The translations under genes and the position numbers were made by a program. Positions 16,382 to 40,677 of a stretch of DNA of 40,677 nt are shown here, piece by piece (within the stretch, counting starts at the first letter, position 1; each line of letters starts with the position of its first letter). The stretch spans positions 1 to 40,677 of the forward strand of contig NZ_SSCL01000023.1 of NCBI RefSeq assembly GCF_005876955.1. The letters are read 5' to 3'. The notes below the pieces were generated by a model. It made no database searches, had not been told where the DNA came from, and was given only the letters and a program-made list of their open reading frames with translations. Source of the stretch: Sinomonas gamaensis (lineage in GTDB: Bacteria > Actinomycetota > Actinomycetes > Actinomycetales > Micrococcaceae).

Positions 16382-16384
16382 CGC

Positions 16385-18048: not shown

Positions 18049-18075
18049 TTCACTCTGACGAAAGGCATCCCGAAA

Positions 18076-19014
18076 ATGACCACCGCCCTTGAAACCCAGC
18101 TCGAATTCTCCAAGCTCGGCTCGCGCATCGGCGCTGAAATCCGCGGCCTCGACCTCAGCCAAGACCTCTCGGACGACGTCGTCGCCCAGATCCGCGCAGC
18201 CCTCAACCGGCACAAGGCCCTCGTGTTCCGCGAAGCCAATGTCCGCACCGACGAGGAGCAGGTCCGTTTCGCCTCGCGCTTCGGCCCGCTCACGAAGGCG
18301 CACCCGACCGTCGCCTCCGTAGACGGCGCCGAGAACGTGCTCCCGGTGGACAGCGAGGACGGCTCGGCCAATACGTGGCATACGGATGTCACGTTTGTCG
18401 TCAACCCGCCGCAGGCCACCACCCTCCGCAGCGTCACGGTGCCGGCGTACGGCGGCGAGACCCTCATTGCCTCATCGGCCGGGGCGTATCAGGACCTTCC
18501 CGCCGAACTGCGCAACTTCGCCGATTCGCTCTGGGCCATCCACACGAACGACTACGACTACGCCGTGCCGAAGAACCTCGAGCACGTGGGTGCCGAGGAA
18601 CGCCGCAAGGTGTTCACGCGGATCAAGTACCAGACTGCTCACCCCGTGGTGCGCGTGCACCCGCTGACCGGCGAGCGCGGCCTGTTCATCGGCGGCTTCG
18701 CCCAGCGGCTGCGGATCGTGGGGCTCTCGAACACGGAGTCGAGGGATATCCTCCGCCTCCTGCAGGCCTACATCACCCGGCCCGAGAACGTGGTGCGCGT
18801 CAACTGGGAGCCGAACCAGCTGGTCCTCTTCGACAACCGCATCACCCAGCACTACGCACCGTCCAACTACGATGACCAGCCCCGCAAGCTCAACCGCGTG
18901 ACCATCGCCGGCGACATTCCGGTCGGCGTCGACGGCACGCGGAGCCAGGCGATCGAGGGCGACTCGTCGCACTACTCCGAGGTTGTCTCTGTTTCTGTTG
19001 GGACGGGGGCCTGA
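18076..19014 (+). CDS. TauD/TfdA-family Fe(II)/2-oxoglutarate dioxygenase
   Basis: This is a 312-residue enzyme with the facial triad H102, D104 (WHTDVTF) and H259 (ITQHYA), and R274 (NRVTIAG) placed to bind 2-oxoglutarate. TauD-type enzymes hydroxylate the carbon next to a sulfonate or sulfate ester, which then releases sulfite or sulfate. Its position in an ABC operon of sulfonate type supports taurine, an alkylsulfonate or an alkyl sulfate as substrate, but TfdA-like members act on other acids. It ends two bases before the monooxygenase gene. Confidence 0.87.
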   Translation: MTTALETQLEFSKLGSRIGAEIRGLDLSQDLSDDVVAQIRAALNRHKALVFREANVRTDEEQVRFASRFGPLTKAHPTVASVDGAENVLPVDSEDGSANTWHTDVTFVVNPPQATTLRSVTVPAYGGETLIASSAGAYQDLPAELRNFADSLWAIHTNDYDYAVPKNLEHVGAEERRKVFTRIKYQTAHPVVRVHPLTGERGLFIGGFAQRLRIVGLSNTESRDILRLLQAYITRPENVVRVNWEPNQLVLFDNRITQHYAPSNYDDQPRKLNRVTIAGDIPVGVDGTRSQAIEGDSSHYSEVVSVSVGTGA

Positions 19015-19016
19015 CC

Positions 19017-20348
19017 GTGGGCAAGAAACTGCACCTCAACGCGTTCCTCATGAGCACTGGCCACCACGAGGCGTCGTGGCGGCTCCCCGAAAGCGACCCG
19101 CATGCCGGGACGAGTCTCGCCCACTTCACGCGGCTCGCCCAGACCGCTGAGCGTGGGAAGTTCGACTCGGTGTTCTTCGCCGACTCGCCCGTGCTGTGGG
19201 GGTCCGTGGGACGGCGGCCGGTGAGCGCGGTTGAGCCGACGGTGCTGCTCGCCGCGCTGGCCGCGGCTACGGAGCGGATCGGGCTCATCGCGACTGCATC
19301 GACGAGCTACAACTCCCCGTACAACCTCGCGCGGCGCTTTGCGTCGATCGACCACCTTTCCGGCGGCCGAGCCGGGTGGAACGTGGTGACGACGGCGGGG
19401 GCGGACGCCGCCCGGAACTTCGGCTTGGATGATCAGCCCCTTCACCGCTACCGGTATGAGCGCGCGGCGGAGTTCCTCGACGTCGCCTTCAAGCTGTGGG
19501 ACTCCTGGGACGACGACGCTATCGTCGCCGACAAGGAAGCCGGGGTCTGGGCGGACTCGGATCTGGTGCGGGCCATCAAGCATTCGGGGCTGCACTTCTC
19601 GGTGCGCGGACCGCTCGACATCCCGCGCTCCCCGCAGGGGCACCCGGTCATCGTCCAGGCCGGTTCATCGGAGGACGGGAAGGGCCTCGCTGCCCGCTAT
19701 GCCGAAGCAGTGTTCACGGCGCAGCAGACCCTCGAGGAGGCACAGGCCTTCTACAACGACCTCAAGGTCCGGACCGCCGTCACCGGACGGAACCCCGAGG
19801 GGATCAAGATCCTCCCGGGAATCGTGCCCGTGCTCGGCGGAACCGAAGCTGAGGCACTGAGGCGCGAACGCGAGCTCGACGACCTCATCAGGCCCGAGTA
19901 CGCTCGCATCGAGCTCGCGAAGACGCTGCGCGTTACGCCCGACGACCTGCCTCTCGACCGGGAGCTTCCCGCCGACCTGCCGGACGAGGACGAGATCGAG
20001 GGCGCCAAGAGCCGGTACACGCTCATCGTGGAACTCGCTCGGCGCGAGCGGCTCACTGTGCGCGAGCTCATCGGGCGCCTGGGTGGAGGCCGAGGGCACA
20101 GGACGTTCGCGGGCACGCCTGAGCAGGTGGCGGACGCGCTCGAATCCTGGTTCCTGGCCGGGGCGGCCGATGGGTTCAACATCATGCCCGCCGCCTTGCC
20201 CTCTGGGCTTGAGGAATTCGTTGACCACGTGGTGCCGCTGCTCCAGGCCCGAGGTCTGTTCCGCGAGGAGTACACCGGATCCACGCTGCGCGAGCACTAT
20301 GGATTGGCCCGGCCGGCCAACCAGTACGCACGCCTCGCCTCGGTGTAG
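19017..20348 (+). CDS. NtaA/SnaA/DszA-type FMN-dependent monooxygenase
   Basis: This is a 443-residue flavin-dependent monooxygenase of the bacterial luciferase superfamily. The family start LNAFLMSTGHHEASWRLP, the FFADS segment near residue 55 and SGGRAGWNVVTT near residue 119 match the NtaA/DmoA/DszA branch. These enzymes need reduced FMN from a separate reductase, and none is encoded in this operon. Members attack C-S or C-N bonds (dimethyl sulfide, sulfones, nitrilotriacetate). With the transporter and TauD-like neighbour, organosulfur breakdown is the best guess. The GTG start is two bases after the dioxygenase stop. Confidence 0.87.
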   Translation: MGKKLHLNAFLMSTGHHEASWRLPESDPHAGTSLAHFTRLAQTAERGKFDSVFFADSPVLWGSVGRRPVSAVEPTVLLAALAAATERIGLIATASTSYNSPYNLARRFASIDHLSGGRAGWNVVTTAGADAARNFGLDDQPLHRYRYERAAEFLDVAFKLWDSWDDDAIVADKEAGVWADSDLVRAIKHSGLHFSVRGPLDIPRSPQGHPVIVQAGSSEDGKGLAARYAEAVFTAQQTLEEAQAFYNDLKVRTAVTGRNPEGIKILPGIVPVLGGTEAEALRRERELDDLIRPEYARIELAKTLRVTPDDLPLDRELPADLPDEDEIEGAKSRYTLIVELARRERLTVRELIGRLGGGRGHRTFAGTPEQVADALESWFLAGAADGFNIMPAALPSGLEEFVDHVVPLLQARGLFREEYTGSTLREHYGLARPANQYARLASV

Positions 20349-26951: not shown

Positions 26952-28040
26952 ATGAAGATCACGAGAATCGAAAGCCTTCGGCGCGGGGAAATCGTGGCCG
27001 TCCGGGTCTACACGGACGAAGGCCTCGTCGGCCTGGGACAGACTGCTCCTTACGGGGCGAAGGTGACCGCCCGGGTCCTTCACGACTTTGTGGCGCCGCA
27101 TTTCATCGGCCTCGACCCGTGGGACCTCGAGGCCGCAGTCGACAGCTTCCTGCGCGAGCAGTACAAGTTTCCGAGCTCGTTCGTGCTGCGCGCCCTCGGC
27201 GGCATCGACACGGCCGTCTGGGACCTTCTCGCGAAGTCCGTCGGGCTGCCCGTCTACAAGGTCATCGGCGGCGCCGCGAGGGATAGCGTTCCCGTCTACG
27301 CCTCGAGCATGGTCCGCAACATCTCCCCCGAGGCGGAGGCCGACCGCATCGCGGAACTGGCCTCGACGCACGGGTACCGGGCCGCGAAAATCCGGGTCGG
27401 CGACGCCATGGGGCAGGATCGCGACGCCGAGCCGGGCAGGACGGAACGGATCATCCCCCGCATGCGCGAGGTCCTCGGCCCGGATTTTCTGCTGAGCGCC
27501 GACGCCAACGGCGGTTTCACCGTCTCGCGCGCCATCCGAGTGGGGCGAATGCTCGAGGAGAACGACTACTTCCACTACGAGGAGCCGTGCCCCTTCCCCG
27601 AAATCGAGAACACCGCCCAAGTCGCCGCGGCTCTCGACATCCCCGTCTCGGGCGGGGAACAGGACACGTCGCTGCCGCAGTTCTACCGGATGCTCGGGAT
27701 GCATGCCGTGGATATCGTCCAGCCCGACATCGGCTACATCGGAGGGGTGTCGCGGGCTCGCAAAGTGGCGGTGCTGGCGGAATTCGCCGGGATTCCGTGC
27801 ACTCCGCACTGCGCGAACGACTCCATGCTCCAGGTCTTCACGCTCCACCTGGCCTTGGCCATGCCCGCGTGCATCCACCATCAGGAATGGAGCATCGAGC
27901 GGACACCGTGGACCGAGGGCGTCTATGAACCGATGCTCGAGGTGGTAGGCGGAGCGGTCGCGGCGCCCAGCACTCCCGGCTGGGGAGTCGAGCTGATTCC
28001 GTCCTTCGTGGCATCCTCGGAGTCAGAGGTCACCAGCTGA
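26952..28040 (+). CDS. mandelate racemase/enolase-superfamily enzyme, probable sugar-acid dehydratase
   Basis: This is a 362-residue enzyme with a capping domain (1-115) and barrel. Metal ligands are D184 (DANGGF), E210 (HYEEPCP) and E236 (GGEQD). The bases are K146 in a KIR motif and the D259-H286 dyad, whose spacing of 27 matches mandelate racemase. This pattern suits dehydration of a sugar acid to a 2-keto-3-deoxy acid, or epimerisation. The exact substrate is not readable. The ATG at 26952 follows TGGAGGAATGA. It leads the catabolic cluster and is followed 49 bases later by a LacI gene. Confidence 0.85.
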   Translation: MKITRIESLRRGEIVAVRVYTDEGLVGLGQTAPYGAKVTARVLHDFVAPHFIGLDPWDLEAAVDSFLREQYKFPSSFVLRALGGIDTAVWDLLAKSVGLPVYKVIGGAARDSVPVYASSMVRNISPEAEADRIAELASTHGYRAAKIRVGDAMGQDRDAEPGRTERIIPRMREVLGPDFLLSADANGGFTVSRAIRVGRMLEENDYFHYEEPCPFPEIENTAQVAAALDIPVSGGEQDTSLPQFYRMLGMHAVDIVQPDIGYIGGVSRARKVAVLAEFAGIPCTPHCANDSMLQVFTLHLALAMPACIHHQEWSIERTPWTEGVYEPMLEVVGGAVAAPSTPGWGVELIPSFVASSESEVTS

Positions 28041-28057
28041 CCCCTACACTGGGGTAA

Positions 28058-28072
28058 CCGAAAGTTTCGAAA
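28058..28072. promoter_or_regulatory. candidate LacI operator before the second cluster regulator
   Basis: CGAAAGTTTCG (28059-28069) and the overlapping TTTCGAAA (28065-28072) give a compact symmetric site 18 bases before the LacI start codon. The CCGAAA half-site recurs upstream of the hydrolase gene at 29184 and 29218, which suggests one regulator controls both transcripts. Confidence 0.5.
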
Positions 28073-28089
28073 GAGCAGGACCTTTTCGC

Positions 28090-29124
28090 ATGTCGCTCGC
28101 TTCTCAGGGGCAGAAGCCCAATCTCGCCGAGATTGCCCGGGCCGTGGGGGTTTCCACCCCCACGGTCTCGAAGGTGCTGAACGAGCGCAAAGACGTGGCC
28201 GAGAAGACGCGGGCCAAGGTATTGGCGGCCCTCGAGGAGGCCGGCTACCGCTCGCCTGCCCAGCGCCGCGCGGCCACGGGGCCAGAGGTCGTCGAGGTTG
28301 CCTTCGACTCGGTCAACACGACCTACGCTTCCACCCTGCTCAGCGGCATCCTCGCGTACGCCGCGACCGTCAATGTCGAGATCATCCTGAGCACAACCGG
28401 AGGCCTTCCCGCTGGAGGGCTTGACCTCAGCCGGAAGGCGCAGCGGATGATCGACGAGCGGCGCGCCGGACTGATCGTGGTCACCTCTGCCCTGAGCACC
28501 GCCAATATGGTGGCATTCCGACGGCGGCGCATCCCCGTCGTCGTCCTCGATCCGCTCAATCTGCCGCCAGCCGACCTCGTGAGCGTGGGAGCCACCAACT
28601 TCGCCGGCGGGAGAGCCGCCGCCGAACACCTCCTCGACCTCGGCCACACACGGATCGCCTACCTCGGCGGCCCGGAATCCGCCGAGTACAACCAGGCGCG
28701 GCTCCACGGCTACATGTCCGCCCTCATGGCCCGCGGCATCAACGTGGACCCCGCGCTCGTCATCAACGGCCGGTTCCATGCGGACCATGGCGCAGAGGGA
28801 CTCCGCGCGCTGGCAGCACTCGAGAATCCCCCGACCGCGATCTTCGCCGGAAACGACGTGATAGCAGTCGGCGTCCTGCGCGAAGCCCGACGCCGTGGAC
28901 TGCGCGTCCCCGAGGACCTCAGCCTCGTCGGCTTCGACGGCACCGCCCTCGCCGAGGACTCGGTGCCCTCCCTGACGTCGGTGGCCCAGCCGCTCCAGGA
29001 GATGGGCAGGGCGGCGCTGCGCAGCATCCTGCTTCAGGCGAAGGGCGAACAGCTGGACTCGCACCGGGTCGAGCTCGCTACCCAGCTCGTGATCCGCGAG
29101 TCCACAGCCCCGCCGCGAGCCTAG
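28090..29124 (+). CDS. LacI-family regulator of the glycoside/C2 cluster
   Basis: This 344-residue regulator has the headpiece LAEIARAVGVSTPTVSKVLN at residues 12-31, followed by a hinge and a sugar-binding-type effector domain (TAIFAGNDVIAVGVLREARR, then LVGFDGT). The ATG follows AAAGAGCAGG. It lies between the enolase-superfamily gene and the hydrolase gene. CCGAAA-containing dyads before its own gene and before the hydrolase are its likely operators, so it probably responds to a sugar or sugar acid released from the imported substrate. Confidence 0.9.
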   Translation: MSLASQGQKPNLAEIARAVGVSTPTVSKVLNERKDVAEKTRAKVLAALEEAGYRSPAQRRAATGPEVVEVAFDSVNTTYASTLLSGILAYAATVNVEIILSTTGGLPAGGLDLSRKAQRMIDERRAGLIVVTSALSTANMVAFRRRRIPVVVLDPLNLPPADLVSVGATNFAGGRAAAEHLLDLGHTRIAYLGGPESAEYNQARLHGYMSALMARGINVDPALVINGRFHADHGAEGLRALAALENPPTAIFAGNDVIAVGVLREARRRGLRVPEDLSLVGFDGTALAEDSVPSLTSVAQPLQEMGRAALRSILLQAKGEQLDSHRVELATQLVIRESTAPPRA

Positions 29125-29183
29125 AAGCCCACCCATCCGCGCCCTCTCGGCGGCCCTTTCTGTGTTCAGGCGCACCAAAAGGC

Positions 29184-29224
29184 CCGAAAGTCGATAGAAT
29201 AAATTTCGGAGTTTTCCCGAAAAC
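29184..29224. promoter_or_regulatory. two candidate LacI operators upstream of the hydrolase
   Basis: CCGAAA at 29184-29189 and TTTCGG at 29204-29209 form an inverted pair with a 14-base spacer. GTTTT-CCCG-AAAAC at 29211-29224 is a second dyad. Both share the CCGAAA half-site with the site at 28058-28072. The second lies directly upstream of the -35 box at 29228. Confidence 0.5.
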
Positions 29225-29227
29225 CCA

Positions 29228-29257
29228 TTGACCCCCTCAGCGTGATCTGTCTAACAT
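29228..29257 (+). promoter_or_regulatory. predicted promoter of the hydrolase-transporter operon
   Basis: TTGACC (29228-29233) and TAACAT (29252-29257) are separated by 18 bases and fit a housekeeping sigma promoter. Transcription would begin near 29264, giving a leader of about 80 bases before the hydrolase ATG. Confidence 0.55.
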
Positions 29258-29276
29258 TGAGCAAATGGAAGGCGAG

Positions 29277-29291
29277 TTCCACAAAGTGGAA
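29277..29291 (+). repeat. leader dyad before the hydrolase
   Basis: TTCCAC-AAA-GTGGAA is a perfect six-base-pair inverted repeat within the predicted leader. It could be an mRNA hairpin or an operator just downstream of the transcription start. Confidence 0.45.
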
Positions 29292-29344
29292 TCTCTTCGC
29301 CCCACGCTTGACCAACGACTGATTCCAATCGCCGAGGAGAGTCT

Positions 29345-31906
29345 GTGTCGCAGACCGAGACCACCGTTCGACTCGAGATTCCCGCCGAGTTCTCGCACTC
29401 CGCGCCCGTGCCGTGGGCCGTCGCCCAACTGGAGGCAGCGCTTGCCGGCCGAGGGCTCCACATCACCGAAGGCTCCGATAGCCTGCCGATCCGACTGCGA
29501 AAAGACGACGCCCTCGAGGTCGAGAGTTTCGGCCTGACGGCAGCCGAAGACGGGATCGTCGTGACGGCTGCAGAGCCCCGCGGGTTCGCCTACGGCCTGA
29601 CCGAGCTCGCAGACATCCTGCGGACCGCCGAGGAACCGCTGGCGGCCTTGACGACAGCCGAAGCTGCTCCGAAGACGCCGGCGGCGCCGGTCCGCGGAGT
29701 GCTGCGCTCGTTCTCCAGCGATGTTCTCGACCTCGGCTGGTTCCGCGACCCCGAGTTCTGGACCGGGTACCTCGATGAACTCGCCGCGCAGCGGATCAAC
29801 CGGGTCCATCTGGCGCTCGGCATGCAGTACAACTACTCGCACGATCCGGATGTGCGCGACAACTACCTCTGCTTCGCCTACCCCTTCCTGGTCGAGGTGC
29901 CCGGGTGGGAGCAAGTGCGCGTGGAAGGCCTGGGCGAGGACGACCGCCGTCGAAATCTCGAAGCGCTCCGTTTCGCGAGTGACGAAGCCGCACGGCGCGG
30001 CATCCATTTCCAGCTGGGCCTCTGGAACCACGCGGTGCGCCCGGAGCTCGACGAGAGCCCCGAGCTGCGCTATCCGATCGCGGGCCTGCCCGACGAGCAG
30101 ATTCCCGCATACTCGGCGGACGCCCTCCGCCTTCTGCTGGCCGAATGCCCCGCCATCGCCGGAGTGACCTTCCGGGTGCACTACGAGGGCGGCGTGCCTG
30201 AGAAGGACCACGGCGCTTTCTGGCGGACCGTGATGTCCGGGCTGCGCGACGCCGGGCGACAGCTCGACGTCGACATGCACGCCAAGGGCGTGGATGCGGA
30301 GCTGATCCAGGTGGCCCGAGAAGTGGGGGCCCACGCAGCGATCTCGCCCAAGTATTGGGCTGAGCATCAGGGGCTTGCGTACCATCAGGCATCCGTCCGG
30401 CCCCTCGAGAAGGCGCGCCCGGCGAACGGGGACGGCCTGCGCGGGGTGACCCAGAACGAACGTCGTTTCACGCGCTACGGCTACGGCGACTTCCTGGGCG
30501 AGGAGCGCGACTACGACGTGATCTTCCGTGTCTGGCCGGGCAGCCAGCGGTTCCTCATCTGGGCCGACCCGGAGCTGTTCGCGGGATACGGACGGTTCAG
30601 CACACTGGGCGGAGCGCTGGGCGCTGAGCTCTGCGAGCCTCTCACCTTCCGGGGCCGCAAGGACACCGGCCGGGACGGGATCCCCCGCGACCTCTACGTG
30701 GATGAGTCGCTCTCACTCGGGCGTGACGACTGGAAGAAGTACGCGTACGAATACCGGCTGTGGGGCCGGCTCATGTACGACCCCTCGGCTTCGGAAGAGA
30801 CCTGGCTGCGCAGCCTGCGGCAAGAGTTCGGCGCCGCAGCTGAACCGCTGGCCTCGGCTCTCTCCTCCGCCGGCAAGGTCATGCCGCTCGTGACGGTGAC
30901 CCAGTCCTTGAGCGCCTCGAACAACTTCTTCTGGCCGGAGGTGTTCACGGACATGCCGATCGCTCGCCACGCGCGGTCGCTCGACACCTACGACTTCGAC
31001 CTCGAGGACCCCGGAACCTGGGGCACCGCAAGCCCCTTCGACCCTCAGATCTTCGAGACCGCGGACGCCTACGCCGCGGGGCTCATGAGCGGGAAGCCGA
31101 GCGGGCGGATCACGCCCGACCAGGTCGCGTCCCGGCTGCTCCTGATGGCAGAGTCCGCGGAGGCGGCGCTCGAAGACGCTCGAAAGTCTGCACCCGAGCC
31201 CGAGTCCCCGAGCTTCCGACGCCTAGCCATCGACGTGGCCCTTGAGGCCCTCTTGGCGCGGTTCTTCGCTGGCAAGATCCAGGCCGGCGTCGCGTACTCG
31301 CTCTTCAGTGCGACGGGCGACACCCAGATTCTGCGGAGCGGGCTGGCCGACTACCAGGAAGGGCGAGATGCCCTCGCCCGCCTCATCAAGACTGCGAGCG
31401 GCATCTACGGTGCCAACCTCGCGTTCGGCGACCGCCCCTCGGAGCAGGGCCACTGGAGCGATCGGCTCGCCCAAGTGGACGCCGACATCGCGGAACTGGC
31501 CCGCGAGCTCGAGGAGGTCGCGCGCGGCACGAACGGCTCTGACGCATCGGCTGTCGCTTCCCGGCGTTCGACGCAATGGCGACAGGGCGGTCTCGACCAC
31601 ACTCCCGCGGGGGACTTCGTGCACGGGCGTCCGTTCGTCGTGCAGGCCCAGGCTGAGCCGGGAATCACCGTCGAGCTTCGGGCACGCCACCTCAACCAGG
31701 GCGAGGACTGGCTTGCGGTTCCGATGAATCGCGAGGGCGGCGAACTCTCCGCGACGATCCCCGCCGACTACACGGAGGCGCGGTTCCCGCTCGAGTACTT
31801 CTTCGTCCTTCGGGACGAGGACAGCCACGACGCGTGGCTCGTGCCCGGGCTCGAGGAAAGCCTCGCAAATCAGCCCTATCACGTCGTGACTGGCCACCTC
31901 GCCTAG
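29345..31906 (+). CDS. putative glycoside hydrolase of unassigned family (853 aa)
   Basis: This large cytoplasmic-looking protein has no signal peptide. The first 110 residues resemble the small alpha/beta domain found before GH20, GH67 and related catalytic barrels (ending RGFAYGLTELADILRT). Residues about 115-450 look like a barrel: RGVLRSFSSDVLDLGWFRD, INRVHLALGMQYNY, FQLGLWNHA and VTFRVHYEGG with E281 as a possible acid/base. A helical part of about 250 residues and a C-terminal beta domain (about 740-853) follow. I cannot place it in a named family, so its activity, perhaps on an oligosaccharide or uronoside, is inferred from the ABC sugar importer next door. It starts with ATG behind the promoter and operators at 29184-29257. 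Confidence 0.6.
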   Translation: MSQTETTVRLEIPAEFSHSAPVPWAVAQLEAALAGRGLHITEGSDSLPIRLRKDDALEVESFGLTAAEDGIVVTAAEPRGFAYGLTELADILRTAEEPLAALTTAEAAPKTPAAPVRGVLRSFSSDVLDLGWFRDPEFWTGYLDELAAQRINRVHLALGMQYNYSHDPDVRDNYLCFAYPFLVEVPGWEQVRVEGLGEDDRRRNLEALRFASDEAARRGIHFQLGLWNHAVRPELDESPELRYPIAGLPDEQIPAYSADALRLLLAECPAIAGVTFRVHYEGGVPEKDHGAFWRTVMSGLRDAGRQLDVDMHAKGVDAELIQVAREVGAHAAISPKYWAEHQGLAYHQASVRPLEKARPANGDGLRGVTQNERRFTRYGYGDFLGEERDYDVIFRVWPGSQRFLIWADPELFAGYGRFSTLGGALGAELCEPLTFRGRKDTGRDGIPRDLYVDESLSLGRDDWKKYAYEYRLWGRLMYDPSASEETWLRSLRQEFGAAAEPLASALSSAGKVMPLVTVTQSLSASNNFFWPEVFTDMPIARHARSLDTYDFDLEDPGTWGTASPFDPQIFETADAYAAGLMSGKPSGRITPDQVASRLLLMAESAEAALEDARKSAPEPESPSFRRLAIDVALEALLARFFAGKIQAGVAYSLFSATGDTQILRSGLADYQEGRDALARLIKTASGIYGANLAFGDRPSEQGHWSDRLAQVDADIAELARELEEVARGTNGSDASAVASRRSTQWRQGGLDHTPAGDFVHGRPFVVQAQAEPGITVELRARHLNQGEDWLAVPMNREGGELSATIPADYTEARFPLEYFFVLRDEDSHDAWLVPGLEESLANQPYHVVTGHLA

Positions 31907-31964
31907 ATCACGTCGCACAGATCAATTCGGAATTTCCCACACCAACACGGAGGACAGGACAAAG

Positions 31965-33266
31965 ATGTTCACATCAAACTGGCGAGGACGCGCTGCCATG
32001 GTCGGCGCCGTCGTGCTCACCGCCGCGACAGCGCTCACGGCCTGCGGGTCCGGAAGCGGCAGCAGCAGCGCTTCGAAGGACGCCATCACCGGAACGATCC
32101 GCGTGAGCGCCCAGACCGACCAGCCGTACCTGCAGGACGCAGCAAATCAGTTCGAGAAGCTGCACCCGGGCACCAAGGTCCAGCTCGTCGAGTCGCCGTC
32201 GAACACGTACCAGACCACGATCCGCGCCCAGCTCGACGCGAAGCACGCACCGGACGTCATGTTCGTGTGGGGCGGCGCCGGAAACGCCATGGCCACCCAG
32301 CAGCTCGCCAAGGCCGGCATGCTCGCGGACCTCTCGGATCGACCGTGGGTCAAGAACATGGGTGACACGGCGAATGGCCTCGTCTCCTACGACAACAAGG
32401 TGTACGCCCTCAACACCTATGCCAACCCGACGGGCGTCTTCTACAACACGGACATGCTCAGCAAGCTCGGAGTGTCGATTCCGAAGACGTTCACCGAACT
32501 CCTCTCCTTCTGCAAGGACGTGTCCTCGAAGGGCATCGTCCCGATCGCCATGGGCAACCAGACCGGCTACCTCAACACCGAGGTACCGCTCGAGCTCGTC
32601 AACACCCTCATCTACTCGAAGAACAAGAACTTCGCCGCGGACATGGCCTCGGGCAAGGAGAAGTGGACGACCTCGGATCTGTGGAAGTCGTCGCTCACGA
32701 AGGCGCACGAGCTGTACCTCCAGATGAACGACGCGAAGTGCTTCCAGGCGAACTCGACCGGCTACTCCGATCAGCAGGCCCGGCAGCTCGTGGCGCAGGA
32801 GAAGGCGCTCGGCGTCAACATCATCTCCGCGGCCGCCCAGGGCGTGCAGCAGGCGAACCCGAAGATCAAGTACGACATGTTCGAGATCCCGGCCACGGAC
32901 AATCCGGATGACACGATCCTGACCATGAACACGGGCGCCTCCTACGCAGTGAACAAGGACAGCACGAACCTCAAGACTGCCATCGCGTTCATCGACTTCA
33001 TGGGCGAGGACAAGCAGCTCACCGCGGCCTCGAATGCGGCCTTCGGTGTTCCCTACAAGGCGGGTCCCAACACGACCGTGATGGACGGGCTCAAGGGCAT
33101 CGAGCCGCTCTACAAGGCCGATAAGACGGCCCTGTGGGCCACCAACTTCTGGCCCAATGCCGAAGTCAAGCAGGTCATGATCGCTCAGGATCAGAACCTC
33201 ATCCTCGGCAAGACCAACGTCACCGATGCGGTCAACGCGATCCAGAAGGCCTTCGCCGGATCCTGA
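31965..33266 (+). CDS. carbohydrate ABC transporter substrate-binding lipoprotein
   Basis: This 433-residue family 1 extracellular binding protein has a signal peptide with lipobox LTAC and lipidated Cys27, followed by a Ser/Gly linker. The mature part has typical features: ITGTIRVSAQTDQPYLQDAA, DVMFVWGGAGNAM and YALNTYANPTGVFYNTDMLS. It binds the sugar or oligosaccharide outside the membrane and hands it to the two permeases that follow. Upstream GGAGG is seven or more bases from the ATG. A strong hairpin follows, probably raising the level of this protein over the permeases. Confidence 0.9.
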   Translation: MFTSNWRGRAAMVGAVVLTAATALTACGSGSGSSSASKDAITGTIRVSAQTDQPYLQDAANQFEKLHPGTKVQLVESPSNTYQTTIRAQLDAKHAPDVMFVWGGAGNAMATQQLAKAGMLADLSDRPWVKNMGDTANGLVSYDNKVYALNTYANPTGVFYNTDMLSKLGVSIPKTFTELLSFCKDVSSKGIVPIAMGNQTGYLNTEVPLELVNTLIYSKNKNFAADMASGKEKWTTSDLWKSSLTKAHELYLQMNDAKCFQANSTGYSDQQARQLVAQEKALGVNIISAAAQGVQQANPKIKYDMFEIPATDNPDDTILTMNTGASYAVNKDSTNLKTAIAFIDFMGEDKQLTAASNAAFGVPYKAGPNTTVMDGLKGIEPLYKADKTALWATNFWPNAEVKQVMIAQDQNLILGKTNVTDAVNAIQKAFAGS

Positions 33267-33272
33267 TCTCGA

Positions 33273-33304
33273 CGAGGGTGGGGCGCCAAGGCGTCCCACC
33301 CTCG
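33273..33304 (+). terminator. intercistronic hairpin after the sugar-binding protein gene
   Basis: CGAGGGTGGGGCGCC (33273-33287) pairs with GGCGTCCCACCCTCG (33290-33304) over 15 bases with one wobble pair and a two-base gap. It lies seven bases after the binding-protein stop and before the first permease. Such hairpins give partial termination or protect the upstream mRNA. Confidence 0.75.
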
Positions 33305-33358
33305 CCCGTCCAGCGGTACCACCCCTCAGCGTGCCGCCCCACTTGAGGAGCCATCAAA

Positions 33359-34285
33359 TTGGTTATCACTACAGAAACTCCCCCGCGCTCCGATACGCGC
33401 CCCCGGAAGGCAGTGCGAGGCGGCGCAGCAGGTGCACGCATTCCGTTCTGGTTCGCGGTCCCCTGCCTTCTGATCTTCGCGGGCGTGGTCGCCTACCCCA
33501 CGCTGCAGGGCATGTACTACGCGTTCACCGACTGGACCGGTCTGGGCAGCGACATCCACTTCAACGGCATCGACAACTTCGTCAAGCTGTTCTCCTCCCC
33601 CGAGGCCCCTGAGGCGCTGGGCCACACGCTGCTCATCGCGGCTTCTGTCACCATCATCCAGAACCTGCTCGGCCTGCTCCTGGCCATCGGACTGCACTCG
33701 AAGATCAAGAGCCGGAACGTGCTCCGCACGCTCCTCTTCGCCCCCGTGGTCATGACGCCCGTGATCGTGGGCTACGTGTGGCAGTTCATCTTCGTCCCCG
33801 GCGGACCGTTCGCGTCCCTCACCGAGTCGCTCGGCGCCCCTGTTGGCGGCCTGAATGTCCTGGGCGACCCGGCATTCGCCATCTGGGGCATCATCACCAT
33901 CGTGATCTGGCAGCACGCGGGTTACTCCATGGTCATCTTCCTCGCGGGCATGCAGAACGTCCCGGACGAGCTCCTCGAGGCCTCGGCCCTCGACGGCGCC
34001 AACGCCGTGCAGAGGTTCTTCTGGATCACGTGGCCGCTCCTGCGGACCCCCACTCTCATCAACGTCACGCTCTCGCTCATCTCCTCGATGAAGCTCTTCG
34101 ACCAAGTCATGGCCACGACGCAAGGCGGGCCCGGAAACGCAACGCAGACGCTCTCCACCCTGCTGTTCAGCGAGGCCTTCCTCTACAACAACTACGGCTA
34201 CGGGATCTCGCTCGGCCTCATCGTGTTCATCCTCATCGCGGTGATCTCGTTCGGCCAGATGCGGCTCTTCCGGGAACGGGACTGA
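33359..34285 (+). CDS. carbohydrate ABC transporter permease, MalF type
   Basis: This 308-residue membrane subunit has about six helices. The EAA loop is ELLEASALDGANAVQRFFWI near residue 205. The start is a TTG at 33359, supported by GAGGAG about nine bases upstream; no ATG or GTG with a ribosome site lies near the family N-terminus. It lies after the hairpin at 33273-33304 and five bases before the second permease. Confidence 0.88.
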   Translation: MVITTETPPRSDTRPRKAVRGGAAGARIPFWFAVPCLLIFAGVVAYPTLQGMYYAFTDWTGLGSDIHFNGIDNFVKLFSSPEAPEALGHTLLIAASVTIIQNLLGLLLAIGLHSKIKSRNVLRTLLFAPVVMTPVIVGYVWQFIFVPGGPFASLTESLGAPVGGLNVLGDPAFAIWGIITIVIWQHAGYSMVIFLAGMQNVPDELLEASALDGANAVQRFFWITWPLLRTPTLINVTLSLISSMKLFDQVMATTQGGPGNATQTLSTLLFSEAFLYNNYGYGISLGLIVFILIAVISFGQMRLFRERD

Positions 34286-34290
34286 AGGAC

Positions 34291-35115
34291 ATGAAGAAAT
34301 ACACGTGGCGAACCGGCGTCCTCGAGGCAGTGATGATCCTCGTGACCGCGGCCTTCGTCTTCCCCCTCTGGCTCCTGGTCTCGGTCGGCTTCCGGCCCTC
34401 CGCGGAGGTCTCACTCAATCCGGTTGCGCCGCCGTCGTCGCTCTATCTGGAGAATTTCTCTACCGCGTGGGAAGAAGGCGGCCTTGGCCCGGCCTTCATC
34501 AACAGCATCTACATCACCGCGATTTCGGTGGCGATCCTCGTGGTCGTCGGCGCCTGCGCGAGCTACTACTTCTCGCGGTCGCGCGGCAAGGCCGGCCTCC
34601 GCTGGTTCGCGATCGTGGCAGCCGGCATGATGGTGCCCTTCCAGATCGGGGTGCTGCCGCTCTACCGCGTCATCACCGACCTCGGGCTCGCGGGGAACCC
34701 CGTTTCGCTCATCATCTTCAACGCGGGAATCCACCTCCCGCTCACGGTCATCCTGTATACCGGTTTCATGCGGCAACTGCCCGCCGAGTACGAAGAGGCC
34801 GCTCGGGTCGACGGCGCCAGCTCGTTCCAGACCTTCTGGCGCATCGTCGTGCCGCTCCTCCTGCCCGTCACCGGAACCGTGATCGTCCTCGATGGCGTCT
34901 CCATCTGGAATGAGTTCTTCACGCCCCTGCTCTACCTCGGCGGCACCCCGAACGTCACGGTCCCCGTCCAGATCTACAGCTTCGTGGGCGAGTTCAACAC
35001 CCATTGGGGTCAGGTATTCGCCGGCCTGCTGATGGCAAGCCTGCCGATCCTCCTCCTGTTCTTCGCCTTCCAGCGCTACATGATCCGCAGCTTCGGCAGC
35101 GGCCTGAAGGGATGA
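34291..35115 (+). CDS. carbohydrate ABC transporter permease, MalG type
   Basis: This 274-residue membrane subunit has six helices and the EAA loop PAEYEEAARVDGASSFQTFW near residue 160. ATG 34291 follows TGAAGGAC; a longer in-frame reading from 33778 is only the shadow of the first permease. Its stop overlaps the start of the FAD oxidase gene in ATGA. No ATPase gene is present, so the importer probably uses a shared MsiK-type ATPase encoded elsewhere, as in many actinobacteria. Confidence 0.9.
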   Translation: MKKYTWRTGVLEAVMILVTAAFVFPLWLLVSVGFRPSAEVSLNPVAPPSSLYLENFSTAWEEGGLGPAFINSIYITAISVAILVVVGACASYYFSRSRGKAGLRWFAIVAAGMMVPFQIGVLPLYRVITDLGLAGNPVSLIIFNAGIHLPLTVILYTGFMRQLPAEYEEAARVDGASSFQTFWRIVVPLLLPVTGTVIVLDGVSIWNEFFTPLLYLGGTPNVTVPVQIYSFVGEFNTHWGQVFAGLLMASLPILLLFFAFQRYMIRSFGSGLKG

Positions 35116-36497
35116 GAACCGTCATGCACCTGGCTCCGATCGACGCGCGGGTTGAGGATCTCATCGCCGCGCTCCCCGAAGGCAGCGTGCTCACGGAACC
35201 CACCGCCGTCGAACCCTACCGGCGTGACCGCGCAGGTGACCCGGACGCCGGCGTCCCGCTCGCCGTCGTCCGCGCAGCGTCGACAGCGGAAGTGCAGACA
35301 GCGGTGCGCTGGGCGGCGCGGCATGGCGTGCCGGTAGTGCCGCGGGGAGCTGGCACCGGCCTCTCGGGCGGGGCGAGCGCTGTGTCCGGCGGCATCGTCG
35401 TCTCGACCGAGCTGATGCGCGAGGTGAAGGTCGATGCTCGTACCCGCACGGCCGTGGTCCAGCCCGGACTCCTCAATGCGGAGTTCAAGGCGGTAGTAGC
35501 GGAGCACGGTCTCTGGTACCCGCCGGATCCGGCCTCGTTCGAGATCTGCTCCATCGGCGGCAACCTTGCGACCAACGCGGGCGGCCTCTGCTGCGTGAAG
35601 TACGGCGTGACCGCCGATTACGTGCTCGGCCTCGAGGTCGTGCTCGCCGACGGCCGGGCGGTACGGCTGGGCGGCTCCTTGATCAAGGACGTCGCGGGCC
35701 TCAACCTCGTCAAGCTCTTCGTCGGCAGCGAGGGGACCCTCGGGATCATCACCGAGGCCACCCTCCGCCTCCTTCCTGCCCCACCCGCGCACCGGACCAT
35801 CGCGGCCTGGTTCCGCACCACCGAGGACGCGGCCGAGGCAATCGCCGAGATCGCCAGCACCATCCGGCCCAGCATGCTCGAGTACATGGACCGGAACTCG
35901 GTCAACGCCGTCGAGGACCTCCTCGGGATCGGGCTCGACCGCGAGGCCGCCGCCTTCGTCCTGGCAGGAAGCGATGATCTCGACCCCGCGGGGCGCGAGA
36001 TCACCGTGATGCTCGAGGCCTTCGCGCGGCACGATCCGATCCTGGTCCAGGAGACCTCCCCCGAGGACGGCGCAACGCTCGAGTACGCCCGCCGCATCGC
36101 CATCCCCGCCGTCGAGGCCACCGGCCGCCTGCTGCTCGAGGACGTCGGGGTGGCCATCCCCCGGCTCGCCGACCTCATCCACGGCGTCGAGGAGATCGCG
36201 GCTCGGGAGCGCGTGCGCATCGCGTTCATCGCCCACGCCGGCGACGGCAACACCCACCCGCTCGTCGTGTTCAACCCCGACGATCCTGCCGAGGAAGCCC
36301 GCGCACATCAGGCCTACGGCGACGTGATGACTCTGGCCATCCGCCTCGGTGGAACCATCACCGGCGAGCACGGAGTGGGCCGGCTCAAGCGCCCCTGGCT
36401 GGAGGACCAGATCGGCCCGGATGCCCTCGACATCGCCCAGCGGGTCAAGGACGCGTTGGACCCCGAGCACCTCTTCAACCCCGGAACGATTTTTTAG
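35112..36497 (+). CDS. glcD: GlcD-type FAD-linked oxidase (glycolate/2-hydroxyacid dehydrogenase)
   Basis: This is a 461-residue FAD enzyme with a PCMH-type N-terminal domain ([20 protein letters not shown] near residue 80, then [13 protein letters not shown]) and a C-terminal domain with [12 protein letters not shown] and [17 protein letters not shown]. It oxidises a 2-hydroxy acid; glycolate is favoured by the malate synthase G gene directly downstream, with D-lactate as the alternative. GlcE and GlcF partners are absent, so it may work alone. ATG 35112 overlaps the permease stop; ATG 35124 is also possible. Confidence 0.82.
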
Positions 36498-36508
36498 GAG
36501 ACCGACGA

Positions 36509-38716
36509 ATGACCGGAACTGAGCGCGCCCGCGTGGGCGGGCTGCAGATCGCTGCCGCGCTGCACGAGTTCATCGAACAAGAGGCGCTTGCTTCCAGCGG
36601 GCTAGGGTCCGAGGAATTCTGGCAGGGCGTCGAGGAGATCATCACCGACCTCATGCCCGCCAACCGCCGCCTCCTCGCAGAGCGCGACCGTCTCCAGTCC
36701 GAAGTGGACGATTGGAACCGCGCATACCGCGGGAAAGCCTGGGACGCCGCCGAGTATCGCGCCCGGCTCGAGCAGATCGGGTACCTCGTGCCTGAACCCG
36801 AGCAGGTCACAGTGACCACGCAGAACGTCGACACCGAGATCGCCGAGCTCGCGGGCCCGCAGCTCGTGGTGCCCGTGAGCAACGCTCGGTACTCGCTCAA
36901 CGCCGCGAACGCGCGGTGGGGTTCGCTGTACGACGCCTTCTATGGCACCGACGCCCTGCCCGGTTCGCCTCAGGGCAGGGGATACGACCGTGACCGCGGC
37001 CTTCAGGTCATCGCGGAAGTGCGGCGACTGCTCGACGAGTTCTTCCCGCTGGAGCACGGCAGCCACACTGACGCGACGCAGTACGCCGTGGAGGACGGGA
37101 CCCTCGTCGTCACGCTCCCCTCCGGGCCCAGCCGCCTGAAGGACAGCGCTGCCTTCCGCGGCTTCACCGCGGATCCCGGGCGCCCCGAGGCGATCGTGCT
37201 CTGCCGCCACGGCCTCCATTGGGAACTGCGCTTCGACCCCAACTCTCCCGTGGCGGCCGACGACCGTGCCGGCATGAGCGACGTTGTCGCCGAGGCCGCC
37301 CTCACCACGATCATCGACTTCGAGGATTCAGTGGCTGCCGTCGACGCGGCCGACAAGGTGGCCGCGTACCGCAACTGGCTCGGCCTGAATCGCGGCGACC
37401 TGGTGGAGAGCTTCGAGAAGAACGGCAGAACCATCACCCGCCGCCTCGCCGAGGATCGTCGGTACATCGCTCCGGATGGCTCGGAGCTCGTCCTGCCGGG
37501 TCGCTCGCTTCTTTTCGTCCGCAACGTCGGCCACCACATGATGACTGACGCTGTGCTCGACGCCGCGGGGGACGAGGTCGGTGAGGGCATCATCGACGCG
37601 ATCGTCACTGTCCTGTGCGCCCTGCCCGGCATCGATCCGGGCAACCCGAAGCGCAACGGCTCCGCCGGGTCCATCTACATCGTGAAGCCGAAGATGCACG
37701 GACCCGAGGAAGTGGCTTTCGCCGTGCGCCTCTTCGGTCGGGTAGAGCGACTCCTCGGGCTCGCGCCGGAGACCATCAAGCTCGGGCTCATGGACGAGGA
37801 GCGCCGCACGAGCGCGAACCTCAAGGCGGCTATCGCCGAGGCGACGAGCCGGCTCGTGTTCATCAACACGGGCTTCCTCGACCGGTCTGGCGACGAAATC
37901 CACACCTCCATGGAGGCCGGTCCCATCGTTCGGAAGGCCGAGCTGCGCACGCAGCCCTGGATGCTCTCCTACGAGGACCGGAACGTGGACATCGGCCTCG
38001 AGGTGGGCCTGCCCGGCCACGCACAGATCGGCAAGGGCATGTGGGCGGCTCCCGACCGGATGGCCGCGATGCTGGAAGAGAAGATCGGCCATCCCCTCTC
38101 CGGGGCGACGACAGCCTGGGTGCCCTCGCCGACCGCGGCGACCCTGCACTCCCTGCACTATCTGCGAGTCGACGTGCGCGGCCGACAGGCCGAGCTCGCC
38201 GGGGCGCGCCGCGCAGGCCTCGAGCAGCTGCTGACGGTCCCCGTCGGCGACCCCGAGCAGTGGGACGAGGCGGCCCGTCGCGCGGAGGTCGACAACAACG
38301 TCCAGTCGCTCCTCGGCTACGTGGTCCGCTGGGTCGATCAGGGGATCGGCTGCTCCAAGGTGCCCGACATCCACGATGTGGGCCTCATGGAGGACCGCGC
38401 CACCCTGCGCATCTCCAGCCAGCTGCTCGCCAACTGGCTGCGCCACGACGTGGTCTCCGCGGCGGAGGTACGGGCATCGCTCGAGCGAATGGCCGCCGTC
38501 GTCGACTCTCAGAATGCCGGCGACCCGGCCTACCGGCCCATGGCGGATGACTTCGATGGAAGCTTCGCCTACCAAGCGGCCTGCGAGCTCGTCTTTGAAG
38601 GGGCCGCGCAGCCGAACGGCTACACGGAGCACATCCTGCATCGCTGGCGCCGGAAGGCGAAGGAGCAGGCGGCGGAGTGGAATCAGACGGAACAGGAACA
38701 GAGGGCAGGCGTATGA
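36509..38716 (+). CDS. glcB: malate synthase G
   Basis: This 735-residue monomeric enzyme joins glyoxylate and acetyl-CoA to malate. Family landmarks are present: [56 protein letters not shown] and [20 protein letters not shown], which carries a conserved acidic residue near the catalytic base. Length equals that of the usual G isoform. The ATG follows TTAGGAG. It lies between the GlcD-type oxidase and the GlcG-type gene, so glyoxylate is probably made from glycolate in the same operon. Confidence 0.95.
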
Positions 38717-39144
38717 AGCAGTACATCGAAACCGCGTCGATCAGCCATGAGCTGGCGCTCCACATTGTGGACGTGGCCATCGAACAGGGCGCCCAGCTCG
38801 GAGTGCCAGTGGCCGTCACGGTCGTGGACCCGGCGATGGCGTTGGTTGCCTACGCTCGGGCCGACGGGATGACCCCGCACAGCTCCGAGACGAGCCGCCG
38901 CAAGGCCCAGACCGCGGCATCGACCCGGCGGCCGAGCGGGTGGATGCAGGGCGATTTCGCACTCATGCTCCCCCTTGGCTCCGGGAACCGACTCACCAAC
39001 ATCAACGGCGGTGTCCCGCTCCGCTTCGATGGCCGGCTCATCGGCGGCCTGGGGATCGCCGGCGGCACTCCTGATCAGGACGCCGAGATCGCCTTGGCCA
39101 CACTTCAGGCGGTCGGGGCCGACACCCTGACGCCTGTCCCGTAG
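38713..39144 (+). CDS. GlcG/HbpS-family protein
   Basis: This is a 143-residue protein of the GlcG/HbpS (DUF336) fold: [20 protein letters not shown] at residues 11-30 and [17 protein letters not shown] following. Members bind haem or act with glycolate oxidase in unknown fashion, and GlcG is encoded in glycolate loci of other bacteria. ATG 38713 overlaps the malate synthase stop and is preceded by AGAGGGCAGG. The usual GlcG Cys or His pattern is not obvious, so a redox role cannot be claimed. Confidence 0.82.
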
Positions 39145-39162
39145 ACGACCCGGAGGATTTCC

Positions 39163-40326
39163 TTGGCTTTCCATATTGCTCTGCCGCGCCTGATGAAGGT
39201 CGGCGGAGGCGCCATCAAAGAGCTGGGCGATGTCGTCGCCGAGTTGGGGGCGCGGCGCCCCCTCGTGGTCACCGATCCGTTCATGCAGAAGTCCGGGACG
39301 GTTGACGCAGCCCTCGATGCCCTGCGGGCGGCCGGCTTCGACGCCGCGGTCTTCTCCGAGACCGTGCCGGACCCCACCACAGACTCGCTCATTGCGGGGC
39401 TCGAGGCGGTCCGCGAGCACGACGCGGACGTCCTGATCGGCTTCGGCGGCGGGAGCTCGATCGACACCGCCAAGGCGCTCGGGCTCCTGTCGAAGCAGGG
39501 CGGACCGATGCGTCAGTACAAGGCGCCCAGACGGAACACTGGCCCCTCGCTGCCGGTCGTCGCGGTTCCCACGACGGCCGGCAGCGGGTCCGAGGCGACG
39601 CAGTTCTCCATCATCAGCGACTCTGAGACGAACGAGAAGATGCTCTGCGCGGGGCCTGCGTTCCTGCCGGTTGCCGCGGTGGTGGACTACGAACTGACGC
39701 TCTCTATGCCGGCCAGGCTGAGCGCGGACACGGGGGTCGACGCGCTCACCCACGCCATCGAGGCGTACGTGAGCCGCAAGGCCAACCCCTTCTCCGACGG
39801 GTTCGCGCTGGCGGCGATCACCGCGATCGGCCAGAACCTCCGTGAGGTCTACAAGGACGGGGCCAACCGTGAGGCCCGGGAGGCGATGATGCTCGCCGCG
39901 ACCCAGGCGGGCATCGCCTTCTCGAATTCGAGCGTGGCCCTCGTGCACGGGATGAGCCGTCCTCTGGGGGCCCACTTCCACATCGCTCACGGGCTCGCCA
40001 ACGCCATGCTCTTCCCGGCCGTCACCGAATTCTCCGTCGCCGGAGCAGAGGCGCGCTACGCGGATTGCGCGCGGGCGCTGGGCGCCGCGCGCCCGGATGA
40101 CGACGACGGCGCAGCCTCGCGCGCGCTCGTCGCCGAGCTCCATGCGCTCAACCGGGATCTGAACGTTCCCACGCCTGAGTCCTACGGGGTCAGCTCGGAC
40201 GACTGGAGCCGACTGATCCCCCTCATGGCCGAGCAGGCTCTCGCCTCCGGATCCCCGGCCAACAACCCCATCGTTCCGGACGCAACCGAGATCGCAGCCA
40301 TCTACACCAGGATCTACTCCTCATGA
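39163..40326 (+). CDS. iron-containing (group III) alcohol dehydrogenase
   Basis: This is a 387-residue enzyme with the nucleotide loop GFGGGSSIDTAKA (93-105) and metal residues D193, H197, H263 and H277. Group III members reduce or oxidise lactaldehyde, glycolaldehyde, 1,3-propanediol or semialdehydes. Here it could interconvert a C3 hydroxy compound or glycolaldehyde (inference). The start is TTG 39163, seven bases after GGAGG; no ATG is nearby. It ends in an ATGA overlap with the semialdehyde dehydrogenase gene. Confidence 0.87.
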   Translation: MAFHIALPRLMKVGGGAIKELGDVVAELGARRPLVVTDPFMQKSGTVDAALDALRAAGFDAAVFSETVPDPTTDSLIAGLEAVREHDADVLIGFGGGSSIDTAKALGLLSKQGGPMRQYKAPRRNTGPSLPVVAVPTTAGSGSEATQFSIISDSETNEKMLCAGPAFLPVAAVVDYELTLSMPARLSADTGVDALTHAIEAYVSRKANPFSDGFALAAITAIGQNLREVYKDGANREAREAMMLAATQAGIAFSNSSVALVHGMSRPLGAHFHIAHGLANAMLFPAVTEFSVAGAEARYADCARALGAARPDDDDGAASRALVAELHALNRDLNVPTPESYGVSSDDWSRLIPLMAEQALASGSPANNPIVPDATEIAAIYTRIYSS

Positions 40327-40677
40327 CAACCATCAAGACGATTCCGCATTACCTCAACGGCGAAGAGAGCAACGGGGTCGGGGAGCGCACCCAGCCGGTG
40401 TTCAATCCGGCCACCGGCGAGCAGACGGGCGAGCTGTGGCTCGCCGATAGGCAGGACCTGGAGGCGGCGGTGGCGAACGCGCGCAAGGCCGCCGATTCCT
40501 GGGGGGAGGTCTCCCTGGCCAGGCGCACCGCGGTGCTGTTCAGGTTCCGAGAGCTGGTCGCGGGCCACATCGATGAGCTCGCGGCGCTGGTCACCGCCGA
40601 GCACGGGAAGGTCCTCTCGGACGCGAAGGGCGAGATCGGGCGGGGCCTTGAGGTGGTCGAGTTCGCCTGCGGGATCC
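40323..40677 (+). CDS. mmsA: methylmalonate/malonate-semialdehyde dehydrogenase, N-terminal part
   Basis: Only the first 118 residues are inside the window. They match the MmsA/IolA branch of CoA-acylating aldehyde dehydrogenases: HYLNGEESNG, PVFNPATGEQTGELWLADRQ, and EHGKVLSDAKGEIGRGLEVVEFACG. MmsA converts methylmalonate or malonate semialdehyde to propionyl- or acetyl-CoA. The catalytic Cys is beyond the edge, so completeness cannot be judged. It overlaps the iron dehydrogenase stop and would give acetyl-CoA for the malate synthase two genes upstream (inference). Confidence 0.87.
   Translation, partial: MTTIKTIPHYLNGEESNGVGERTQPVFNPATGEQTGELWLADRQDLEAAVANARKAADSWGEVSLARRTAVLFRFRELVAGHIDELAALVTAEHGKVLSDAKGEIGRGLEVVEFACGI

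Follow-up and report, generated by a model that had tools for sequence, protein, structure and literature searches.

A probable glycoside-catabolism operon leading to glyoxylate assimilation in Sinomonas gamaensis

Why should genes for a glycoside hydrolase-like protein and a sugar importer be followed, in the same run, by genes for a glycolate oxidase subunit and malate synthase G? This arrangement is found in Sinomonas gamaensis, in the stretch of 40,677 nucleotides analysed here (the window), which is the entire contig C16 of a 4.32-Mb genome assembled in 35 contigs. We read the run as a single glycoside-catabolism operon ending in glyoxylate assimilation, rare in its family and probably transferred, and put the probability of this reading at roughly 60%. 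A glycosidase, a malate synthase and a glycolate/lactate-type oxidase stand together again in unrelated lineages. All genes from 26952 to the contig end lie on the plus strand, as follows.

26952..28040, plus strand: mandelate racemase (MR)-subgroup enzyme of the enolase superfamily, probable acid-sugar dehydratase or epimerase (PF13378, 182 bits; PF02746)
28090..29124, plus strand: LacI-family regulator (PF00356/PF13377)
29345..31906, plus strand: glycoside hydrolase-like (GH-like) protein of 853 amino acids with a predicted GH138-like fold (profile and structure model)
31965..33266, plus strand: sugar ABC solute-binding protein (SBP; PF01547, 119 bits)
33359..34285, plus strand: sugar ABC permease 1 (PF00528, 65 bits)
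34291..35115, plus strand: sugar ABC permease 2 (PF00528, 63 bits)
35112..36497, plus strand: GlcD-type FAD 2-hydroxyacid (glycolate) oxidase subunit (TIGR00387, 398 bits, below the cut-off of 567.9)
36509..38716, plus strand: malate synthase G (MSG; TIGR01345, 1072 bits, cut-off 989; NF002825, 1149 bits, cut-off 565)
38713..39144, plus strand: GlcG/HbpS-like protein (PF03928, 102 bits)
39163..40326, plus strand: iron alcohol dehydrogenase (Fe-ADH) of the FucO/DhaT/methanol dehydrogenase type (PF00465, PF25137)
40323..40677, plus strand: mmsA/iolA-type aldehyde dehydrogenase gene, of which the contig holds the 5' part (PF00171, 73 bits over 118 amino acids)

Domain and profile scans recovered every gene named in the initial annotation and added the LacI regulator. 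The tight spacing described there from 34285 onward was borne out as well: ATGA overlaps, read directly from the junctions, occur at 35112 (permease 2/glcD), 38713 (MSG/glcG) and 40323 (Fe-ADH/mmsA), and the gaps between GlcD and MSG and between GlcG and Fe-ADH measure 11 nt and 18 nt, respectively. Because the overlaps span the module borders, the hydrolase/ABC block and the two-carbon (C2) block form a single run. No ABC ATPase was found among the run proteins scanned, and the nearest PDB entry to the SBP is the xylo-oligosaccharide-binding protein 3zkk, at only 79.5 bits. The genome holds three malate synthases, two of them type A-like (C35:95848 and C30:188605, 59% identical to each other) and one of type G (C16:38279).

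Outside the window's taxonomic family, malate synthase genes lie close to GH-like genes in several lineages. We searched 61 GH-like-bearing genomes with the MSG protein, MS_C or the MS_TIM-barrel profile, not every genome with every query, and found a malate synthase in 39. In six of these 39 it lies on the same contig as a GH-like gene, confirmed by shared sequence, and no more than 25 kb away: about 1.5 kb in Devosia nitrariae, about 6 kb each in Spirosoma fluviale and a Chitinophagales metagenome-assembled genome (MAG), and about 14, 18 and 20 kb in Paenibacillus aestuarii, P. filicis and P. silvestris, respectively. This count may miss cases split between contigs; the malate synthases of three genomes (G318, G725 and G730), on contigs other than their GH-like loci, were left uncounted. 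The rough chance expectation (39 x 50 kb / 7 Mb) is about 0.3 genomes, a figure that takes no account of GH-like paralogues or common ancestry; the six cases represent about three lineages. The link between glycosidase and glyoxylate assimilation recurs above this rough chance figure, and it does so with different enzymes. As a control, PanC, LysS and ClpC matched only the source locus (L012) among 86 loci, and IolC and IolG matched none.

Three Paenibacillus clusters combine the glycosidase with MSG. The P. aestuarii genes all point the same way, in the order IclR, FAAH, MSG, glycerate kinase, malic enzyme, GH67N-like, GHL6, Fe-ADH, MmsA, SBP, AraC, GH-like, two permeases, GarR-like, a second GH-like and LarA; its MmsA scores 631 bits against TIGR01722. 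P. silvestris has nearly the same run together with an MR enzyme 49% identical to that of the window, and P. filicis has IclR, FAAH, MSG, SBP, AraC, GH42, MR (49-51%) and permeases, with a GH-like gene further on. In P. chondroitinus the order MmsA, Fe-ADH, GHL6, GH, MaeB, MSG, FAAH, IclR and, further on, MR (49%) is found apart from the GH-like gene, which is on another contig. The adjacent pair of Fe-ADH and MmsA recurs in three Paenibacillus clusters. In P. periandrae, genes for GlcD, GlcF-like and GlcE-like proteins (each scoring below its cut-off) accompany those for an FAA hydrolase, MSG, malic enzyme and ABC proteins of the same kind, and the stretch contains no GH-like gene. A Bacilli MAG holds the parts on two contigs: one (L013) starts with the end of GlcF and GlcD, followed by GH-like, MR and ABC genes, and the other (L153) carries MSG, malic enzyme, an FAA hydrolase and a GlcE-like gene and ends in the start of GlcF. 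The two contigs look adjacent. An FAA hydrolase (at least 46% identity) is present in 7 of the 11 Bacillota MSG stretches viewed, and neither it nor a GH-like gene was found in seven alphaproteobacterial MSG stretches (six rhizobial, one another Devosia copy). In Devosia nitrariae, MSG lies beside two GH-like genes. Relatives of the LarA family (nickel-pincer racemase) also occur near the malate synthase/GH-like clusters of P. aestuarii, P. filicis and Devosia (L015 17733, L145 6681, L144 11819), and contig C14 of P. filicis carries partial malate synthase pieces besides the complete copy.

Other lineages pair the GH-like gene with a different malate synthase. In a class-wide sample of 394 genomes, a GH-like match was found in 16: the window's own, three more of full length, and 12 that are weak and N-terminal. 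Two of the three, congeneric actinobacteria of another family (f27), have frames for malate synthase A, GlcD, GlcE-like and GlcF-like proteins about 4 kb from the GH-like gene; this malate synthase A (MS_C, 141 bits) is 61-62% identical to the window genome's own. Beyond their GH-like gene lies a GH2 gene whose nearest PDB entries are glucuronidases (838 bits in one genome; the second is 94% alike), and one of the two also has malic enzyme. In the third full-length GH-like actinobacterium of the sample the malate synthase is 2.9 Mb away. In Spirosoma fluviale, two GH-like genes, GH697-like, PD40-like, GlcF-like and two Lut-like genes are followed, all on the plus strand, by a gene for a 663-residue malate synthase (MS_TIM, 163 bits; nearest PDB entries malate synthases). 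From their size and order we take the two Lut-like genes to be LutB/LutC-like; the first has no PDB match. The Chitinophagales MAG has nearly the same gene set, with PD40-like, Lut-like and malate synthase genes (48-82% identity) beside two GH-like genes. In a Segetibacter MAG the same malate synthase is encoded next to PD40-like, Fe-ADH (41%) and glycerate-kinase-like proteins; the GH-like locus of this MAG is on a different contig. No MmsA match was found in the Bacteroidota-type stretches viewed. Since the malate synthases and oxidases in this setting are non-orthologous, the clusters would have been assembled independently, and the presence of different enzymes in the same place speaks for a genuine functional tie to glyoxylate assimilation. 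A MAG titled Williamsia sp. carries malate synthase and Lut-like genes 61-82% identical to those of Spirosoma, and its name may therefore be wrong.

What kind of glycosidase stands at the centre of these clusters? The GH-like protein has no Pfam match above cut-off (best PF02838, 25.7 bits versus 26.1). Its alignment, used as a profile against the PDB, gave as best match the GH138 structure 6hzf (E 5.5e-16), and a structure model built from an alignment of 63 sequences (pLDDT 90.5) retrieved the same entry first with Foldseek (E 1.6e-31), ahead of GH84, GH20, GH115 and GH67 structures. This entry is BPa0997, the GH138 alpha-D-galacturonidase of rhamnogalacturonan II. The likeness is limited to fold and profile, as identity is only 14%, the TM-score is 0.64/0.63 and the NCBIfam model for this activity (NF049878, alpha-galacturonidase, GH138) gives 35 bits against a cut-off of 1300. 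All 63 sequences share E281, D310, E340, D566 and D630. E281 falls, in a low-confidence alignment, within one column of E294, which we take to be a catalytic Glu of GH138; the other GH138 Glu is E361, as given in the PDB molecule name. We read the model as placing the protein in a family of the GH138/GH67/GH115 neighbourhood, without assigned activity in the Pfam and NCBIfam-type libraries used.

One scan confirmed 164 relatives of this protein, from 62% down to about 36% identity, in Saccharopolyspora, Pseudolysinimonas, Paenibacillus, Rhizobium, Devosia, Spirosoma, MAGs named Acidobacteria, Verrucomicrobia and Planctomycetota, and others; further homologues (28-39%) are found on plasmids of Rhizobium, Marinovum and Haladaptatus. 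On the plasmid of Haladaptatus, a halophilic archaeon, three GH-like paralogues are accompanied by MFS transporters, a BNR/sialidase-like protein and MR enzymes, one of which shares 49% identity with that of the window. An Amidohydro_2 protein occurs in six GH-like loci (L013, L014, L019, L021, L025 and L041), and the small protein after it belongs in all six to a single cluster (in L041 it is a Rieske ferredoxin); PD40/WD40-like proteins recur in GH-like clusters of Bacillota, Devosia and Bacteroidota type (L013 9571, L144 13145, L224 4480, L090 15178, L227 1382).

The MR enzyme accompanies the glycosidase. No NCBIfam model for a named dehydratase or other equivalog was over its cut-off (best NF040790, 152 versus 750 bits), and the nearest PDB entry is 3tcs, a putative racemase (338 bits); other near entries are uncharacterised members of the 'mandelate racemase/muconate lactonizing enzyme family'. 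The K-x-R, D, E, E, D and H positions, presumably the metal ligands and the Lys and His-Asp acid-base residues, are conserved in all eight aligned sequences. Of the open-licence papers listed for the four nearest MR structures, none was relevant by title, an absence that carries little weight. Among 295 genomes of the window's family, the window's own match is followed by one of 32% identity (149 bits), and none exceeds 39% among the matches listed. In Pseudolysinimonas an MR gene 76% identical to the window's directly precedes the GH-like gene (52%), and relatives of 48-50% occur in four Bacillota GH-like loci. The MR, GH-like and ABC set looks like a rare, transferred unit.

Where does the run lead beyond the contig end? 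A full-length MmsA query found, besides other aldehyde dehydrogenases, N-terminal pieces at the ends of contigs C16 and C9, and C-terminal pieces where C8 begins and where C34 ends. The two N-terminal ends match exactly over the last 127 nt, with few differences back to about the third codon, and the two C-terminal ends are the same with one difference, to about 30 nt beyond the stop. In our reading the assembly broke within two mmsA copies that are nearly identical: contig C16 ends inside mmsA because the second copy exists in the inositol operon. That operon is probably C9-C34, as iolC (TIGR04382, 361 bits, cut-off 300) precedes mmsA on C9 and an IolG-like gene (310 bits, below the cut-off of 540) follows it on C34. 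By elimination, C16 would therefore continue into C8, an order that assumes only two mmsA copies. The first complete gene on C8 is an AXE1-family esterase (PF05448, 338 bits), and the three called genes after it are on the opposite strand. The aldolase that, according to the initial annotation, might lie to the right of 40677 was not found at this inferred junction, where the esterase comes next.

The mmsA label of that annotation stands by way of the near-identical copy, whereas the 118 residues in the window alone identify only an aldehyde dehydrogenase (PF00171). Over 116 residues the window's product shares 97% identity with the C9 copy and 87% with the MmsA of a same-genus genome (G175), which itself scores above the model's cut-off (TIGR01722, 704 bits, cut-off 448.5) and follows an Fe-ADH 78% identical to the window's. 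In G175 this pair has a GH26/GH130/GH2-type glycan cluster with ABC genes on one side and glycolate/MSG genes on the other. The usual product of inositol-type MmsA is acetyl-CoA, and the near identity of the window's mmsA to the inositol copy argues for the usual substrate, malonate semialdehyde. The repeat coincides almost exactly with the open reading frame and some 30 nt more, a pattern suggestive of a recent copying or conversion event.

In the route that follows, we infer the class of the sugar, each of the reactions and the derivation of glyoxylate from a C2 unit. An oligosaccharide, probably uronic or otherwise acidic, acetylated and of plant type, would be taken up by the ABC importer with an ATPase from elsewhere and hydrolysed intracellularly by the GH138-like glycosidase, with LacI as the regulator; a uronic, acetylated glycan is our guess because glucuronidase, GH67N-like, GH138-like and AXE1 genes are among the neighbours. 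The MR-subgroup enzyme would dehydrate or epimerise the freed sugar acid, and a carbon-carbon cleavage encoded elsewhere would then release a two-carbon acid. GlcD would oxidise glycolate to glyoxylate, which MSG would join with acetyl-CoA to give malate. Fe-ADH and MmsA may oxidise a small alcohol or semialdehyde and decarboxylate it to an acyl-CoA, the most likely conversion being malonate semialdehyde to acetyl-CoA, which would feed MSG.

The nature of the Fe-ADH allows a different use of the last two enzymes. Its nearest PDB entries are methanol, 1,3-propanediol and lactaldehyde oxidoreductases, and this affinity to small-alcohol and diol enzymes would fit a Dahms-type variant, in which the MR enzyme forms a 2-keto-3-deoxy pentonate, an aldolase encoded elsewhere splits it into pyruvate and glycolaldehyde, Fe-ADH, aldehyde dehydrogenase, GlcD and MSG handle the C2 aldehyde, and the aldehyde used by MmsA is not malonate semialdehyde. 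Fe-ADH stands by glycolate genes in two same-genus genomes, and the SBP and AXE1 neighbours hint at xylan oligosaccharides. However, the operon contains no aldolase and its mmsA is almost identical to the inositol-operon copy, and we regard this variant as improbable, about as much so as the scheme of the initial annotation. There, a C5 unit was to be cut into glycolate or glyoxylate and a C3 semialdehyde, MmsA was to form acetyl-CoA from the latter, and MSG was to join both halves. The gene set and the recurrence of Fe-ADH, MmsA and MSG together agree with this scheme, but no cleaving enzyme was found, the Bacteroidota-type stretches viewed gave no MmsA match, and a C5 route described in PMC6336799 yields glycolate and pyruvate, with no semialdehyde. 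We think it improbable. In the route of that paper, pentonates are converted to pyruvate and glycolate by way of an FAA hydrolase with a His/Glu pair (PMC6336799). Such acylpyruvase (Route III) cleavage by the Paenibacillus and Bacilli FAA hydrolases was considered and rejected, the motif His being kept in only one of seven.

Several findings weigh against one operon for glycoside catabolism through glyoxylate. Neighbours were counted for the best 80 of the 164 GH-like relatives, in flanks of up to 10 kb, many shorter: MSG was present in one, GlcD in one, Fe-ADH in two, MmsA in one and another malate synthase in two, and MSG, GlcD or another malate synthase in only four of the 80. The searches made gave no malate synthase match in 22 of the 61 GH-like-bearing genomes. 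Among the 295 family genomes a GH-like gene is limited to the window's own and one weak partial match (28%); MSG matches occur in 17, of which 13 besides the window's are full length, one is broken and two are weak, and none of those 13 genomes has a GH-like gene. In Pseudolysinimonas (kinship to the window not shown) the MR-GH-ABC and GlcD-MSG-GlcG sets (the latter 75, 75 and 70% identical) lie 1.4 Mb apart, and Saccharopolyspora soli, with the closest GH-like protein (62%) and ABC genes, has no MSG match and a sole MS_C match on contig C41, not placed relative to the GH-like gene. In the window itself, GlcD scores under the curated TIGR00387 cut-off, no GlcE or GlcF stands beside it, the remaining run genes being assigned otherwise, and the run holds no carbon-carbon cleaving enzyme. 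Since the FAA hydrolases of the relatives mostly lack the acylpyruvase His, they offer no obvious glycolate-releasing step either. The missing cleavage and the many GH-like relatives without glyoxylate genes are the weakest points.

Part of this evidence would suit the fusion of two unrelated operons, merely co-transcribed, one for glycoside uptake (MR, LacI, GH, ABC) and one for C2 scavenging (GlcD-MSG-GlcG, Fe-ADH-MmsA). GlcD-MSG-GlcG stands alone in Pseudolysinimonas and in genome G182; the three same-genus MSG loci scanned adjoin lactate/glycolate-permease genes, two of them with Fe-ADH, in genomes without a GH-like gene; and the whole unit is not seen at most GH-like loci examined. A fusion sits poorly, however, with the joins in Paenibacillus, Devosia, family f27 and Bacteroidota, the last two with different malate synthases, and with the ATGA overlap at the module border, and we consider it unlikely. 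The tie that the initial annotation drew between the hydrolase/ABC block and malate synthase holds in the single run here and in unrelated lineages, whereas most GH-like relatives examined lack such neighbours. The usual separation of the blocks, which it had named as counter-evidence, is found in the window's family but gives way to joined clusters in several lineages outside.

How does the proposed operon compare with known systems? Like the E. coli glycolate operon glcDEFGBA, the window has GlcD, GlcG and MSG as one block; it differs in lacking GlcE/GlcF and a glycolate permease and in being joined to a sugar ABC importer, a glycosidase and an MR enzyme. The adjacent Fe-ADH and MmsA resemble the DddB-DddC pair of 3-hydroxypropionate and dimethylsulfoniopropionate (DMSP) catabolism, although the window's set stands in a glycoside operon. 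The relatives' clusters share with the Paenibacillus aldouronate uptake clusters (GH67 with LplA/LplB-type ABC) a GH67N-like gene, the SBP/permease pair and a large AraC-Cache regulator, but they also hold MSG, FAA hydrolase, malic enzyme, Fe-ADH and MmsA. With the Route III non-phosphorylative pentose pathway of Herbaspirillum huttiense (PMC6336799) the window has in common an acid-sugar dehydratase, sugar ABC genes and glycolate as a product, in its own case a proposed one; the window's run has no FAA hydrolase, and 'malate synthase' has 0 occurrences in the text of that paper.

A broader interpretation, which we hold tentatively and at somewhat less than even odds, is that a new sugar pathway was assembled independently several times around the GH138-like family. 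In it a sugar acid derived from a glycoside would yield a two-carbon acid, which a glycolate oxidase (GlcD/GlcDEF or Lut-like) and a malate synthase (type G, type A or a third kind), both dedicated to the cluster, would assimilate, and in some clusters Fe-ADH and an inositol-type MmsA would supply acetyl-CoA from the remaining fragment. Nothing matching the full combination searched was found in the open-licence literature, an absence of limited weight. If the interpretation is correct, a large, Pfam-unassigned glycosidase family would be tied to glyoxylate assimilation, narrowing the search for its substrate; the inositol operon and a new catabolic operon would apparently share mmsA through copying; and malate synthases and oxidases of different kinds would have been put to convergent use in the same setting.

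Ten proteins scanned from elsewhere in the window (two MFS, a sulfatase, two LacI, an aldehyde dehydrogenase, NMT1, TauD, luciferase-type and PntB) show no sign of belonging to the run. At 894-4682 an MFS transporter, a sulfatase and a LacI regulator are encoded in series, and the region 15368-20348, with an NMT1-type binding protein, further open reading frames, a TauD dioxygenase and a luciferase-like monooxygenase, resembles a sulfonate-utilisation cluster.

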